Source: a virus. From it: a stretch of DNA of 25,927 bases. A model generated the notes under the pieces. That model was given only the letters and a program-made list of their open reading frames with translations, searched no databases and was not told where the DNA came from. Made by a program: the position numbers and the translations under genes. Where the stretch lies: the IMG/VR virus record IMGVR_UViG_3300012931_000070, positions 1 through 25,927 of that record; one strand, written 5' to 3'. Shown here one piece after another: positions 1,622-25,888 of this stretch; the stretch's first letter is position 1, and each line of letters opens with the position of its first letter.

Positions 1622-2814
1622 CAATCCCTCACAACCGTGATGCGCGAGGCGTCGTATTGCGGGATCTCGTTGGGAGCCATGGTGAGGACGGCACCGGAGA
1701 TCGGGGGGTCGGAGATTCCGACCAAGAGCGTCATGTTGTTGATTCCTGCGACGGAGGCGGCGGCTCCGGCAGCCAGTTGGAACGGAACCACGTCCTCGCC
1801 CAGGGCGGCGTTATCGGTGCCAAATTCCTCAAGCGCATCGGCCAGTCGCGTGTCGCCATCGGATGGATAGACAGCACCCTCGCGTGAGTCCGTGTTGGCC
1901 GTCACGTTGGCGATTATGTAGATCGGCACGGTTGTGGGGCGCGAGAAACAAATGACTTGTTCCACGCCCTCGGAATCCTCGACTGTTACCTCTGTGTCAC
2001 CGTGGGTCTCAATTCCGCCTCCGACCGAGGACGCTATCGCCTCGGCAATGTCCGTGTCGTCGCCACCCGTGACGTAAATCTCGACGGAGTGTGGAGGCAG
2101 ACCGTTTTCGTCGGTCGTGTCGAACTCGTTTTCCGCTCCCCCGGTGAGGGTGACACCGGTCACGGCATCCACTGCAGAGATAATCCCGTTGAGGGTTCCT
2201 GATCCTGTGCGACGGAGGCTGCGAAGCCGACGTTGACGAAAAGCTTCCGAGGTCTCCGTGTCTTGTCCTGGCATGGCATCGGCGGCATTGGTTACGGACG
2301 TGATCCCTGATTTCGGGGTTGCGATTGTCGTCAACGTTCCGGCAGGGGCCAGGACAGGCCCGGTATCGTGGGCCTGCATTGCGACCTCCACGGTCCCCGT
2401 AGGACCGATGGTGTGCTCGGCCAAGGCCTCGAACAACGCCGTGGAGTCCCCGTCCACCGACGCCCCAAACGGATTCGGCGGACCGTCGATTACAGTGCCC
2501 TCGTCCCCGGTGACGGTGGCTGTAACCGTGGAGTACGAAGCGGCTTTGCGCTCGGCGTCATTCAAACGATACAGTCGGTCCTGGGCCTCATCCTCGGCGG
2601 AATCGGGGTCCATGGAGTTGTAGATGTCCTCCATCTTTTCCCACAAGGTGTCCTCTCGGGCGGCCAGGATCGCCGCCAACTGTCCGAGTGGTGATGTTTC
2701 GGTCAGGTTGATGGCATCACCAAAAGCCGTCCTGAATGCGTCCTGGATTTCCTCCAGGATGTCAGCCAACCTCGGGCGCGAGAACCCCGTGGAAAGAACT
2801 CCGTAATCAGCCAT
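1621..2814 (-). CDS. Baseplate wedge protein, J-like (P2 gpJ / Mu gp47 family)
   Basis: At 397 aa it has the usual length and layout of baseplate J-like proteins. The N-terminal region has FSRPRLADILEEIQDAFRTA and the SPLGQLAAILAAREDTLWE helix that opens the family. The middle has repeated acidic beta-rich segments. Residues about 180-215 contain GQDTETSEAFRQRRLRSLRR followed by GTLNGIISAVDAVTGV, the conserved core of the family. In P2 and Mu relatives the protein forms the wedge ring around the hub. It overlaps the end of the gp25-like gene by 8 bases, and its own stop overlaps the next start, so the three genes are probably translated in concert. Confidence 0.92.
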   Translation of the reverse strand: MADYGVLSTGFSRPRLADILEEIQDAFRTAFGDAINLTETSPLGQLAAILAAREDTLWEKMEDIYNSMDPDSAEDEAQDRLYRLNDAERKAASYSTVTATVTGDEGTVIDGPPNPFGASVDGDSTALFEALAEHTIGPTGTVEVAMQAHDTGPVLAPAGTLTTIATPKSGITSVTNAADAMPGQDTETSEAFRQRRLRSLRRTGSGTLNGIISAVDAVTGVTLTGGAENEFDTTDENGLPPHSVEIYVTGGDDTDIAEAIASSVGGGIETHGDTEVTVEDSEGVEQVICFSRPTTVPIYIIANVTANTDSREGAVYPSDGDTRLADALEEFGTDNAALGEDVVPFQLAAGAAASVAGINNMTLLVGISDPPISGAVLTMAPNEIPQYDASRITVVRD

Positions 2815-3157
2815 TACCTACCTCCAGGGCTATTTCGCCGTCAGAAGTCGAAACGCGGATTTGGACCGTGGCCGTCCTGGTCTCAACGTCCTGCTCGAAA
2901 GACATTTCGAGAAGATCAAGAACCCCAGGAGTCTCAAGGACCGCCCTGGTGAGGATGGCTTGGGCGTTCTGCGGATTTTTCTCGAACAACTCCGTGAACC
3001 ACGGCAAGCCATCCGACCGATCCATGAACCACTCGCCCTGGACCGCCAACAGGCGCTGCCGAATGCGTTGTTTAACCTCATCGGCTCCCGTGACGATGGG
3101 GATGGCGTTGTTTTCAAAAACGAGGAGGCCGTCGTCGTCTTGTTTCAGATCGGACAC
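2807..3157 (-). CDS. Baseplate wedge protein, gp25-like
   Basis: This 116-aa protein contains GADEVKQRIRQRLLAVQGEWF and DRSDGLPW followed by a VLETPGVLDLLEM segment. These are the hallmarks of the T4 gp25/DUF2634-type baseplate family, in which the protein joins the wedge to the sheath and helps start sheath polymerisation. The start is a GTG at 3157, with a GGGGGG ribosome site immediately upstream. That site lies right after the T-run of the terminator at 3174-3226, so this is the first gene of a new transcription unit or of one reached by read-through. The J-like gene follows with an 8-base overlap. Confidence 0.88.
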   Translation of the reverse strand: MSDLKQDDDGLLVFENNAIPIVTGADEVKQRIRQRLLAVQGEWFMDRSDGLPWFTELFEKNPQNAQAILTRAVLETPGVLDLLEMSFEQDVETRTATVQIRVSTSDGEIALEVGNG

Positions 3158-3275: not shown

Positions 3276-3704
3276 CTACTCGACCCGGACCAGTGGAACA
3301 CCTAAAGTCATTCCATCCCCGATTCCTTCAATCGTGACCAAATCGCCTTTTTTTAGCGTGGACAACCATTTCACGTAATTGTCGTTTTCGTAACTGACTA
3401 TAACCACCCGAAGAATATCACCTCTGGCCTTGAGAGAAATCTGTGGTTTACCAAAGATGTCCTTTTGAATATCGACCATGACCCCGGTGACTTCCAAAAG
3501 TTTTCCCTTGTATTTGTCGTCGGCCCCGACCTCATTGTCGTGGTAATCGTCGTAAAGTTGGATGGCCGTCGCGGAGATTGGAACGACTTTCTTTTTCTCT
3601 TTGTTGCAATTCGAGCCGCCTAAAAAAAGAAGAACAAAAACACCAAGAAAAACCCACATAATCTTGTTGAACGCCGAGTCCTTCTTCGGTTGATCTTGGC
3701 TCAT
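3276..3704 (-). CDS. Membrane-anchored OB-fold protein (tRNA_anti-like)
   Basis: This 142-aa protein has a charged N-terminus, one membrane segment at residues about 15-32 (IMWVFLGVFVLLFLGG), a Lys-rich stretch, and then an OB-fold-like domain at about 43-142. The domain has the signature ATAIQLYDDYHDNEVGAD, KYKGKLLEVTGVM and LKKGDLVTIEGIGDG, which I recognise from the tRNA_anti-like family of envelope proteins. The family's exact role is not known. Here the domain would lie outside the cytoplasmic membrane. A Cys follows the membrane segment but does not form a proper lipobox. A strong AAGGAG site precedes the ATG. It sits in an AT-richer stretch between fiber-like and baseplate genes, so it is probably an accessory (moron-type) gene rather than a virion part. 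Confidence 0.75.
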   Translation of the reverse strand: MSQDQPKKDSAFNKIMWVFLGVFVLLFLGGSNCNKEKKKVVPISATAIQLYDDYHDNEVGADDKYKGKLLEVTGVMVDIQKDIFGKPQISLKARGDILRVVIVSYENDNYVKWLSTLKKGDLVTIEGIGDGMTLGVPLVRVE

Positions 3705-3733: not shown

Positions 3734-4663
3734 TTACAAAATAATCCACTTTCCAGATTCGTAATCCAACAAAAGCATTTTTTCCCATTGGGAGATGACT
3801 ATATTTGCGCTTCCATCAATAGTATCGGAACTTGATCCTTCGATGGTCACGGAACCAGCACCAACACATTTGTAGTATTTGTACTCACCGCTCCCTGTTG
3901 CGGATTGGAGTGTTATGGCTCCAGCAGAGGCATTATCGAAAACAATAACTTTCATGGATACTGGAGCAGCACAACTTGAGGTGATTGTGGTTACAGCCAT
4001 AGCATCACGATCAATTTTACCGCCATTGAAATAAGCACCAGCAGAATTAAATAAATTTAAACCAATGGATTCATCTGTAAAAGAAGATGATGCATACGCT
4101 CGACACGTGACAAACCTTTTGGTTTTATCATCATGATCGACGGTTTTCCACCCGAGACCAGCTCCGGTTAATCCTCCACCGTAGGATATTGGAATAACGC
4201 TAAAAACAACTCCACCATCAACATCAATATCAAGATACCCAGTTGATACTATGCCTCCACCTTTTGCAGTTGGAGTATTTGGAGTTGTCATAGAAAGATA
4301 CGAAACAGTTTGAAGTGTTTGATTTGGATTTCCCAGTTGAACCCACAACGGAGAAGGACCACCATAAAAAATACTTGCAATCGCATAATCACCAGCGTAA
4401 AGACTTCCAGTGGAAGGAAGGTGCAGATCATTACCGTTCATCGTGACGGAAGAATTTGTAACGGCTCCATATGATGTCCATTGCGCGAGTGCGTTGGCGG
4501 ATCCAGCACAGATTCTAGACCCACCACCTGGAGTAGTAACAGCCATAACACCAATCCTATTCGTTGGCGTGTTTCTTGGAGTGGGTGAAAATGTAGGTGT
4601 CTGAGCAACCGCCTCGGAGACCATGAGCAGGATGGTGTAAAAAAATATGTTTATCTTTTTCAC
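3734..4663 (-). CDS. Secreted or surface fiber-like protein with signal peptide
   Basis: This 309-aa protein begins at GTG 4663, with AAGGAG 7 bases before it. Residues 1-21 look like a classical signal peptide: KK, then a hydrophobic core (INIFFYTILLMVS), then an AVAQ cleavage site. A Thr/Pro-rich linker follows (TPTFSPTPRNTPT). The remainder is rich in Gly, Ser, Thr and Val with short beta-type repeats, and the end (SSDTIDGSANIVISQWEK, then LLLDYESGKWIIL) resembles the last module of phage fibers. The DNA is much AT-richer than the surrounding genes. A signal peptide is unusual for a virion protein. It may be an exported fiber-like protein, a lysogenic surface protein, or a bacterial acquisition. 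I do not assign a function. Confidence 0.65.
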   Translation of the reverse strand: MKKINIFFYTILLMVSEAVAQTPTFSPTPRNTPTNRIGVMAVTTPGGGSRICAGSANALAQWTSYGAVTNSSVTMNGNDLHLPSTGSLYAGDYAIASIFYGGPSPLWVQLGNPNQTLQTVSYLSMTTPNTPTAKGGGIVSTGYLDIDVDGGVVFSVIPISYGGGLTGAGLGWKTVDHDDKTKRFVTCRAYASSSFTDESIGLNLFNSAGAYFNGGKIDRDAMAVTTITSSCAAPVSMKVIVFDNASAGAITLQSATGSGEYKYYKCVGAGSVTIEGSSSDTIDGSANIVISQWEKMLLLDYESGKWIIL

Positions 4664-5581: not shown

Positions 5582-6232
5582 TCAACCTTTCATCAACGAA
5601 AGTAGTATTTTGATCCTGGTCAATTGGATCTGCGCCCCAGGCCCCAGGGGCTGTGGACCGATGGCCGTCATGGTTGTCGCGCCTTGCAGCGCAATGATCA
5701 GTTGGTCGATGATGTCCAGTAGTTCCACGGCACTGTTTTTTAGGATGATCTTCCCTGCTGCCGTTATCTCGATCCACGCGCTCCCGTTGCAAATCTCCAG
5801 GCTGGTATCTGCGCCCTTTGATGAAATTTTGTTTACCTTCGACCGGCCGCCAGGGATGGCAAACGCGTCCGTCATGTCGTGGTGGCGCTTGCTCTGCGTC
5901 TCCTCAACTGACCCGGACTCGTACCAATCGTCGATGGACCGCTCTGAGAAAACCAAAAGCACCTCGTCGCCCTTGGCGACTGGCAGCCGCACGTGGGCCG
6001 AACCCATGGAAGGAAAAACCAGTGGGACCTTGTTGATGGGGCGGACCTCAATGACTTGGTCGTCGGAGGCATACCGCTTTTTGAGCATTGGCTGCACGTC
6101 AACGGTGTAGTCCGAGGAGTAGTAGGCGAGAACCTTCCCCGGCAGGCAGGTGTGCAGGTCCAAGGCGCGGGAATCGAAGTGCCCGTCCAAAATCTCAGAG
6201 AGGGTTGGTGTCCGGCTATCTTTTCGGGACAA
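5582..6232 (-). CDS. Baseplate spike protein, gp138-like (gpV/gp45 role)
   Basis: The protein has an OB-fold type N-terminal domain (residues about 24-127) with LHTCLPGKVLAYYSSDYTVD, VQPML, VPLVFPS and KGDEVLLVFSERSIDDWYESG, then the conserved RHHDMTDAFAIPGG. This is the pattern of gp138/gpV central spikes, which pierce the outer envelope at the tip of the tube. The C-terminal end (ICNGSAWIEI, then KIILKNS) fits the short beta-helix of these spikes. No ATG exists near the expected start. I choose the TTG at 6232 because GGAGGG lies 5 bases before it and because the protein then begins LSRKDSRTPTLSEIL, as the family does. This gives 216 aa and a 17-base overlap with the hub gene. Confidence 0.85.
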   Translation of the reverse strand: MSRKDSRTPTLSEILDGHFDSRALDLHTCLPGKVLAYYSSDYTVDVQPMLKKRYASDDQVIEVRPINKVPLVFPSMGSAHVRLPVAKGDEVLLVFSERSIDDWYESGSVEETQSKRHHDMTDAFAIPGGRSKVNKISSKGADTSLEICNGSAWIEITAAGKIILKNSAVELLDIIDQLIIALQGATTMTAIGPQPLGPGAQIQLTRIKILLSLMKG

Positions 6233-7052
6233 GGAAACCCTCCGCGGTGGTGCTGAAGTCACCCTCTTGGGAATCAAAATCAAACACAGCCCTTGATACC
6301 CTGATCCAAGCGGACCCGCAAATTGGTGAAACAAGATTGACCAGACGCCCAGGGATGATCTCTTTGTTCAGAAGGCTTTTGAAACTCCAGTCATACCCCG
6401 CATCATCAGATTCGGTCGATGTCCCTTTTTGCGGGTACTCCAGCAACCCGGTCGAAGCCTGAAGAACAACCGCCACCTCGCCTGTGCTCTCGTTCTCGGG
6501 TACGACCTGGATCTCTCCGTTCTGGACGCTCCACGTGTATCCGACATCCCGGAGGATCTGGTTCATTGCCTTTCGGGCCTGGCCGCTGAAGTGGTATCCC
6601 CTGTTGTATTTGATCTCGCGGAACTCAGTCATTGCGGTCGAGGTCATTCCCAACGCGTCCTTGATGCGCTGGAATGCCTGTCGGTTCGTTGAACCCGGTC
6701 CCAAGGAAATGTCAACGTGGCTGTCGGACAGTGACCTCTCGCCATCCCCTGCCTCGATGCGGCACACGTCCTCGGCCTTGTCCTTCTTGTTAAGGACTTT
6801 TGAAATATCGCCAAGGAAAAGCATTCCGGTATCGCCGCCGTATCCGACGTCCACCCTCACGGCCATTCCTGGGCTTTCGACGAATCGTTGTGAGTCCGGG
6901 CTCAGGTTCAACAGTTCGATCACGGCCTTGTTTGCGAAAAAATCATCCGTCTTTTCTACCTGCCCTCTGGCGCGGACCTTGAACTCCTTGGAGCCCAAGG
7001 CAAAACCAGGCTTTCCAACCGTAACTATGACCGTCCGGTTAAAGAGGATCAT
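6216..7052 (-). CDS. Baseplate hub protein (gp27/gpD-like)
   Basis: This 278-aa protein begins MILFNRTVIVTVGKPG and continues with FKVRARGQVEKTDDFFANKA, NLSPDSQRFVES and a VDVGYGGDTGMLFLGDIS strand-rich stretch. The next part has RQAFQRIKDALG and YHFSGQARKAMNQILRDVG, with WSVQNGEIQVVPENE after it. This succession is typical of the tail hub proteins of simple contractile tails (gp27-like, Mu gp44/P2 gpD relatives), which form the central ring holding the spike. It overlaps the plug gene by 4 bases and the spike by 17 bases. The family is assigned from sequence pattern and from its place between plug and spike. Confidence 0.8.
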   Translation of the reverse strand: MILFNRTVIVTVGKPGFALGSKEFKVRARGQVEKTDDFFANKAVIELLNLSPDSQRFVESPGMAVRVDVGYGGDTGMLFLGDISKVLNKKDKAEDVCRIEAGDGERSLSDSHVDISLGPGSTNRQAFQRIKDALGMTSTAMTEFREIKYNRGYHFSGQARKAMNQILRDVGYTWSVQNGEIQVVPENESTGEVAVVLQASTGLLEYPQKGTSTESDDAGYDWSFKSLLNKEIIPGRLVNLVSPICGSAWIRVSRAVFDFDSQEGDFSTTAEGFLVPKR

Positions 7053-24404: not shown

Positions 24405-24740
24405 TCACCATTTTTCCGCAGATGCGAGGTGTACCGCAATATTCATTTGTCTACACTTTTTTTCGGCTTTGTTCTTATCTCTCAGAATATCCACCGGTTT
24501 TCCATGAGGATTCCGATTTCTTGGCTTGGTATCCCAAATCATAAAAACGGGATTGTGTTGTGGTTGATCGCCGGGATATTGGTTATTTTTCTTTCCTAGA
24601 AGCAGTCCGTTTACCATACAGACGATGAAACGCTCTTTAAACTCCGGTGGAAGTGTTTCTCCGCATCCAAATTCGCAGAGGTAATCAGCAGAATAAATCT
24701 CCATCCCACACTTTTTGCAGCATAAGGTTTCACTTTTCAT
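24405..24740 (-). CDS. Zinc-ribbon-like small protein
   Basis: This 111-aa protein starts with MKSETLCCKKCGMEIYSADY and continues LCEFGCGE. The Cys pairs (C8-x2-C11 and C22-x3-C26) could bind zinc. The rest is unlike any family I know; it has GNQYPGDQP-type loops and a basic end. A strong AAGGAGG site precedes the ATG. Its role is unknown. In phage accessory regions such proteins often bind nucleic acid. Confidence 0.6.
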   Translation of the reverse strand: MKSETLCCKKCGMEIYSADYLCEFGCGETLPPEFKERFIVCMVNGLLLGKKNNQYPGDQPQHNPVFMIWDTKPRNRNPHGKPVDILRDKNKAEKKCRQMNIAVHLASAEKW

Positions 24741-24774: not shown

Positions 24775-25437
24775 TCAGTTTAAAATTCGTTCCAGGTTGA
24801 CCTTCTTGCGTATCTCGATCTTGTATTCGCGCAGGGCTGAAACGAGTTCCAGAATCTTTTCCTTCGGCGGTTCGGGTAGGTTGGAGTGCTTGGAATCCGC
24901 TCCGATGTTCACAAACAGTGGTTTTATTTTTGTGATCCATTCGGCCAAAACTTTCACGTCAAAGTCCATGATGGGCTCAATGGTGATAAAAGTTGAAATG
25001 CTTGGATGAAGCCCCATCATGCCCTCGTATCTGCTTATGGGTGGCGCGGCCTTTGAGTGTTCGGGGTAAAAACGGTTGCTCTCGATGGTTGTCCCGAAAA
25101 GACAAACCAGGGCTTCAAACTCAAATTTATTGGCTCTGGATGGGTTCTTGGATTGAAAAACGTATTTGTTTAAGTGTTTACGACAATGCGCGAGTATTTT
25201 TTTAATCCACTCGTCGGGAACATTGGGGGCCCCCTGTGTGGACTTGCTGGCGGCGTCTGCGAAGGCGGCTTCCCAAGAATCACCGGACCCAACCACACGC
25301 TCATTTATGCCGATGGGCGGCCCGGAATTGTAGGTTTCCCATATCCGGTGTGAAACGGGTCTATCCGAATCAAACGTGATACGGGCTCTTTCTCCGAACA
25401 ACTCTTGAGCTTTTTTAAGCGCTTCCTCGTTCGTCAT
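24775..25437 (-). CDS. Chimeric protein: phage small N-terminal domain plus C-terminal half of a DUF5131/Gp37-type family
   Basis: This 220-aa protein has two parts. Residues 1-68 (MTNEEALKKAQELFGERARI, then VVGSGDSWEAAFADAAS) form a small domain seen in other phage proteins. Residues about 72-215 (VPDEWIKKILAHCRKHLNKY, VFQSKNPSR, GTTIESNR, FITIEPIMDFD, FVNIGADSKHSNLPEP) match what I know as the C-terminal half of a phage radical-SAM-like family (DUF5131/Gp37). In that family the half before VPDEW carries a Cys-rich CxxCxxCY-type motif. Here it is missing, so iron-sulfur chemistry is unlikely. The frame is intact. It starts right after the methyltransferase stop. Confidence 0.7.
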   Translation of the reverse strand: MTNEEALKKAQELFGERARITFDSDRPVSHRIWETYNSGPPIGINERVVGSGDSWEAAFADAASKSTQGAPNVPDEWIKKILAHCRKHLNKYVFQSKNPSRANKFEFEALVCLFGTTIESNRFYPEHSKAAPPISRYEGMMGLHPSISTFITIEPIMDFDVKVLAEWITKIKPLFVNIGADSKHSNLPEPPKEKILELVSALREYKIEIRKKVNLERILN

Positions 25438-25438
25438 G

Positions 25439-25888
25439 TCATCCCTCGCTTCTCATACTGCGGTTGGCGATTCGGTCATACATCACGATGCTTCCAGCCA
25501 CCGCGACGTTGAAACTACCTCCCGTCAGTTGGATTATGTGCTGACACTTTTCCATGATCGAAACCGGAAGCCCTGAATCCTCCGCTCCAAGCAGATAGAC
25601 CGCGCACTTTGGATGCGTGAATCCTGGTATCTTTGCGGCCTCATCCGACATCTCCACGCCAACCAATTCAGCACCGAATGGCCTAGACTCTTGGAAGTGA
25701 TCGAAGTCTTTGAAATGAAAGAGCGGGAGATGTCTCTCGGTTCGCATGGTGTCGCTGGATTGTTTTTGATAACGAGCCCCGATGGTGAAAACAAAGGCTG
25801 CGCCCAACTGATTAGCTGAACGCCAAAGGGTTCCAACATTTGCCTTTGTTTTCGTGTGGTAGATGCCCACTCCAAAAAATCCTTTCAT
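25439..25888 (-). CDS. SpoU/TrmH-family RNA methyltransferase
   Basis: This 149-aa protein has the three motifs of the SPOUT/SpoU family: KANVGTLWRSANQLGA (Asn17 and Arg23), LLGAEDSGLP (99-108) and GGSFNVAVAGSIVMYDR (123-139). These form the knotted S-adenosylmethionine site used for 2'-O-methylation of RNA. It is short, without an N-terminal substrate-binding domain, as in the compact TrmL-like group. ATG 25888 has a good AAGGGG site and overlaps the stop of the preceding gene (ATGA). It is an unusual accessory gene next to phage terminase. The RNA substrate is unknown. Confidence 0.88.
   Translation of the reverse strand: MKGFFGVGIYHTKTKANVGTLWRSANQLGAAFVFTIGARYQKQSSDTMRTERHLPLFHFKDFDHFQESRPFGAELVGVEMSDEAAKIPGFTHPKCAVYLLGAEDSGLPVSIMEKCQHIIQLTGGSFNVAVAGSIVMYDRIANRSMRSEG

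Follow-up and report, generated by a model that had tools for sequence, protein, structure and literature searches.

A phage open reading frame that joins a small phage domain to the C-terminal part of a radical-SAM-like protein is most likely a one-off accidental fusion

How did a phage gene come to carry the C-terminal part of a radical-SAM-like protein behind a small phage domain, and is its product a repurposed non-enzymatic protein, as a sequence-only reading had proposed? The window analysed here, 25,927 bases long, is the complete IMG/VR record of an uncultivated phage, and the features of the locus are collected in Table 1. The stop codon of the SpoU-type methylase gene was located 1 nt before the ATG of the chimera and, given this position and the GAGGG upstream of it, the chimera appears to be translated from the start of its small part. 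The open frame, a putative ribosome site and the conserved motifs noticed in the sequence-only reading were all in place. No in-frame ATG, GTG or TTG was found near the VPDEW motif, so a separate internal start for the C-terminal part was rejected. The downstream gene matched no Pfam or NCBIfam family and its best PHROGs match had an E-value of 0.16.

Table 1. Features of the fusion locus and the evidence for each of them
Feature	Position	Strand	Evidence
Chimera ORF, 220 aa	24775-25437	(-)	
Small phage domain, ORF residues 1-67	25237..25437	(-)	Homologues in L082 and L083; profile; GDSWEAAFA motif
Junction codons QGAP, with palindrome GGGGGCCCCC at 25225-25234	25225..25236	(-)	Alignment to intact members
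C-terminal two thirds (residues 72-220 and stop), DUF5131/phrog_2045-type radical-SAM-like, without the CxxxCxxC part	24775..25224	(-)	Profile, identity, invariant positions
Shine-Dalgarno-like GAGGG, 5 nt before the ATG	25443..25447	(-)	Read from the sequence
Upstream gene, SpoU-family RNA 2'-O-methyltransferase	25439..25888	(-)	Pfam SpoU_methylase, E 2.1e-16
Downstream gene, 111 aa, Cys-rich N terminus	24405..24740	(-)	ORF list

The whole 220-aa protein presented no Pfam match at E<=1 and no NCBIfam match, and its match to phrog_2045 was weak and below the model cut-off (E 0.057). In the five intact relatives tested, DUF5131 (PF07505) scored above the Pfam cut-off and the Radical_SAM model below its own, and the same five matched phrog_2045 with E-values from 1e-12 to 1e-16. 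A profile of the C-terminal part of the family, built without the window, matched the chimera with an E-value of 1.4e-54. The identity of the C-terminal part to intact members reached 54% (L007), and it retained all of the 25 positions that were invariant across 20 diverse members. These results indicated that it is homologous to the DUF5131/phrog_2045 phage family, a radical-SAM-like family as the sequence-only reading had recognised, and both share the FQSKNP, GTTIESNR, IEPIMDFD, NIGADS and LPEP motifs.

Intact members of this family begin with a GNMY...CxxxCxxC part, whereas the chimera does not carry it. The CxxxCxxC motif, by which a radical SAM enzyme is recognised, was absent from the chimera ORF, and the N-terminal family profile found no match at E<=10 in the six frames of the whole window. 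The cluster-binding half said to be missing is therefore absent from both the ORF and the window, but it amounts to about one third of the protein rather than one half, as residues 1-76 of L007 (229 residues) were lost and residues 77-229 were kept. Judging from its sequence, the chimera would be incapable of binding a radical-SAM cluster by itself and would be dead as a radical-SAM enzyme. Alignment to intact members, which set the breakpoint to within a few codons, showed that the window protein enters the family just before VPDEW and past the family's DLFA/DMFA motif. The place of joining agreed with that given earlier, but neither Pfam nor PHROGs treats the proposed second half as a unit: in intact members the DUF5131 and phrog_2045 models span the cut position, and no known domain border lies there.

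One explanation for the absent part is that a radical-SAM gene was interrupted by an inserted or inverted stretch, its N-terminal part lying beyond the contig end, from where it may complement in trans. As the contig stops 0.7 kb past the junction, it may simply not reach the missing part, but this part was absent throughout the 25.9 kb and no relative carried a gene split into two complete parts, the frame breaks of L155, L078 and L147 being of other kinds. We consider such an interruption very improbable. A split gene inside the window was rejected because there was no N-terminal profile match.

Residues 1-67 were 40% identical to a 72-aa protein of L082 (E 2e-6, entire domain covered) and also matched a segment of a 137-aa L083 protein. 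A profile of three small-domain members recovered an extra copy in L083 (6504-6719, E 2.1e-8) that had not been used in building it, indicating that the first 67 residues constitute a genuine, recurring phage domain. This confirmed the small phage domain of the sequence-only reading, which had counted 68 residues, and each part of the ORF, when searched separately, was matched by its own profile. The small-domain proteins have the GDSWEAAFA motif in common. In L082 (72 aa) and L083 (137 aa and the second copy) the domain is whole and carries this motif, as in the chimera, but it stands alone or with another C-terminal part and never with a radical-SAM part. Members were few; an alignment-based scan with the small domain returned the L082 contig again and nothing else, and none of the radical-SAM loci among those fetched contained it. 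In L083 the domain was present as two adjacent copies (5848-6261 and 6504-6719) on one phage contig.

In order to establish how rare the fusion is, we surveyed all loci fetched, the scans listing the best 80 of 92 and the best 80 of 229 relatives. The best 80 of 92 relatives from the viral-contig scan with the whole protein matched it mostly from residue 30-78 to about residue 219, and the ORFs at these loci were mostly of about 215-260 aa, nearly all with CxxxCxxC near the N terminus. The C-terminal profile matched 138 distinct ORFs among the loci fetched, and 128 of them had CxxxCxxC, using a pattern that tolerates small spacing variants. The remaining ten comprised the window, ORFs cut by contig ends (L146, L142 and L159), broken frames (L155, L078/L079 and L147) and Cys variants (L068, L076 and L154). 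The others were rejected as further cases for these reasons, and the window was the only complete ORF with a different N terminus among the 138 listed. No second fusion was found among the matches listed in viral contigs, genome contigs, phages and plasmids, in scans that may omit records very near the window and that rarer or distant cases may escape. The exact 36-base junction sequence was not found in other viral contigs, and our literature search returned no paper naming DUF5131 and nothing on such a fusion. Further genomes should share a new protein that is maintained, and the repurposing proposed by the sequence-only reading was therefore not supported.

Altogether, these findings are best explained by a single recent event, either an in-frame deletion or an illegitimate recombination, through which a small phage protein acquired a catalytically dead radical-SAM tail. 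We hold this explanation to be probable, with modest confidence. This would account for a C-terminal profile match as strong as that described above in a window where the N-terminal part is matched nowhere, for a small domain that occurs without the radical-SAM part in other phages, and for a single case among the 138 family ORFs. The position of the cut points the same way, with the small domain cut at its end, the predicted barrel between one strand and the following helix, and the frame open. In the proposed event, deletion or recombination in a phage would have fused the full length of the small-domain gene to an internal point of a radical-SAM-like gene. Translation would begin at the start codon of the small gene and yield a product with about 150 residues of partial barrel, any function most likely residing in the small domain and the radical-SAM tail being probably a functionless passenger. 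Of this account, the two origins, the missing Cys part, the open frame and the retained motifs are shown by the data, and an event within a genome, its recent date and the lack of function in the tail are inferred. Against this explanation, the parental order, with the small gene beside an intact radical-SAM gene, was found in no relative. No homologue with the same junction was found either and a deletion is the simplest event, but an undeleted parent was not found. A TerL search for close phage relatives gave about 33% identity at best and thus provided no syntenic parent for comparison. A search of viral contigs confirmed no relative of the SpoU protein, although profile comparison gave one, in L033. 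This phage region carries an intact radical-SAM gene (175-843) and a SpoU-like gene (2644-3045, with a tentative start) 1.8 kb apart, which makes it plausible that both kinds of gene occur in one genome, though their order differs.

The existence of the join in a real genome rests on one contig, and the junction has no second copy to prove a biological origin. A chimeric template or a wrong assembly path could have linked the SpoU and small genes to the middle of another phage's radical-SAM gene. This artefact would be consistent with the lack of a second instance, with a contig end only about 0.7 kb from the junction and with the palindrome GGGGGCCCCC at the breakpoint, noticed post hoc, which is one of 15 perfect palindromes of at least 10 bases in the window and the sole one of that sequence. 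The GC content also shifts from 0.56 before the junction to 0.45 after it, but that of the neighbouring genes already varies between 0.42 and 0.55. Moreover, orientation and frame are preserved, for which the chance is about one in six, and the trinucleotide make-up past the junction does not stand out from the contig, as 57% of equal-sized windows were equally far from the rest, although 0.7 kb is a small sample. We regard an artefact as possible but rather doubtful, and the ordinary trinucleotide make-up also argues for the one-off fusion.

We also addressed the age of the join and the constraint on the C-terminal part. In the tree of this part, the end branch of the window measured 0.98 changes per column as compared to 0.92 for L012, 1.00 for L015 and 1.03 for L007, the four sitting in one weakly supported group. 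By our own estimate, the probability that all 25 invariant positions would be kept if free to change is about exp(-25t), which is less than 5% for any t above about 0.12 changes per site. Retention of all invariant residues together with a branch as long as those of its siblings, as if little time had passed, suggests that the fusion is recent; alternatively, selection may be continuing or the join may be an artefact, which would have undergone zero evolution since joining. These sequence comparisons do not separate the three possibilities, which weighs against taking full retention as an argument for the one-off fusion. There was no sign of altered constraint on the C-terminal part of the chimera.

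Structure prediction gave a model of intact L007 with a mean pLDDT of 93.5, whose top fold matches were the solved radical-SAM folds of spore photoproduct lyase, viperin and lipoyl synthase, at only about 9-16% identity. These proteins all bind a cluster, in which the chimera differs. The model of the chimera, which leans on intact members, had a mean pLDDT of 75.9 and kept the later barrel strands, the first strands and the cluster loop being gone. Residues 71-220 reached about 78-97 by blocks and the small domain about 31-53, low values that say little because the model alignment set unrelated family N termini against this domain. A fold search with this model gave no match at E<=0.001; the third match was 3can, a solved 161-residue domain of pyruvate-formate-lyase-activating enzyme (TM-score 0.67 on 3can's own length).

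That 3can is among the best fold matches suggests that such a part may fold. Together with the block pLDDT values of the C-terminal part and the retained invariant residues, it is consistent with a repurposed non-enzymatic protein in which the small domain would direct a partial barrel that binds SAM, a substrate or a partner, as an adaptor or decoy. However, the barrel part would appear in the prediction regardless, as this used an alignment of intact members, and the small domain obtained no confident model (pLDDT mostly about 30-53). Besides, no second case was found among the loci fetched and constraint showed no change. Repurposing is thus possible but unsupported, and we consider it improbable. 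Slightly less probable still is a maintained two-domain phage protein in which the cluster-stripped radical-SAM barrel would act as a non-enzymatic binding module steered by the small domain. A one-off accidental fusion remains the most likely account of the chimera, in preference to a new kind of protein. Were it biological and maintained, it would show that a radical-SAM barrel can be useful in part even when the cluster is lost; in its most likely form, it illustrates the chance joining of phage genes and warns that chimeras on single contigs need read support.

Other members of the family presented variations of their own. An association of the radical-SAM-like family with DNA methyltransferase genes was rejected (16 out of 76 loci compared to 4 out of 34, p 0.29 in a crude motif test). 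L068 (5824-6489; L177 is the same contig) carries an intact-looking member with CPHGYTYC, in which the second cluster Cys is replaced by Tyr. In L155, from a Methanophagales MAG, the radical-SAM gene (5840-6519) lies in two frames and is split just past CxxxCxxC, which looks like a frame break through a small indel or sequencing error. A 530-aa ORF of Dysgonomonas (L135, 5818-7410), in which a second region with a DGQHR motif comes after the intact radical-SAM part, is a family fusion at the opposite end. Elsewhere in the window, a 142-aa ORF within the tail region (3276-3704, minus strand) is likely a moron: Pfam placed a tRNA_anti-like domain in it with an E-value of 2.1e-18, and in PHROGs it matched an entry annotated as superinfection exclusion Sie-like (E 8e-12). 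A 309-aa ORF at 3734-4663 on the same strand had a third-codon-position GC of 0.32, clearly below that of the neighbouring genes.
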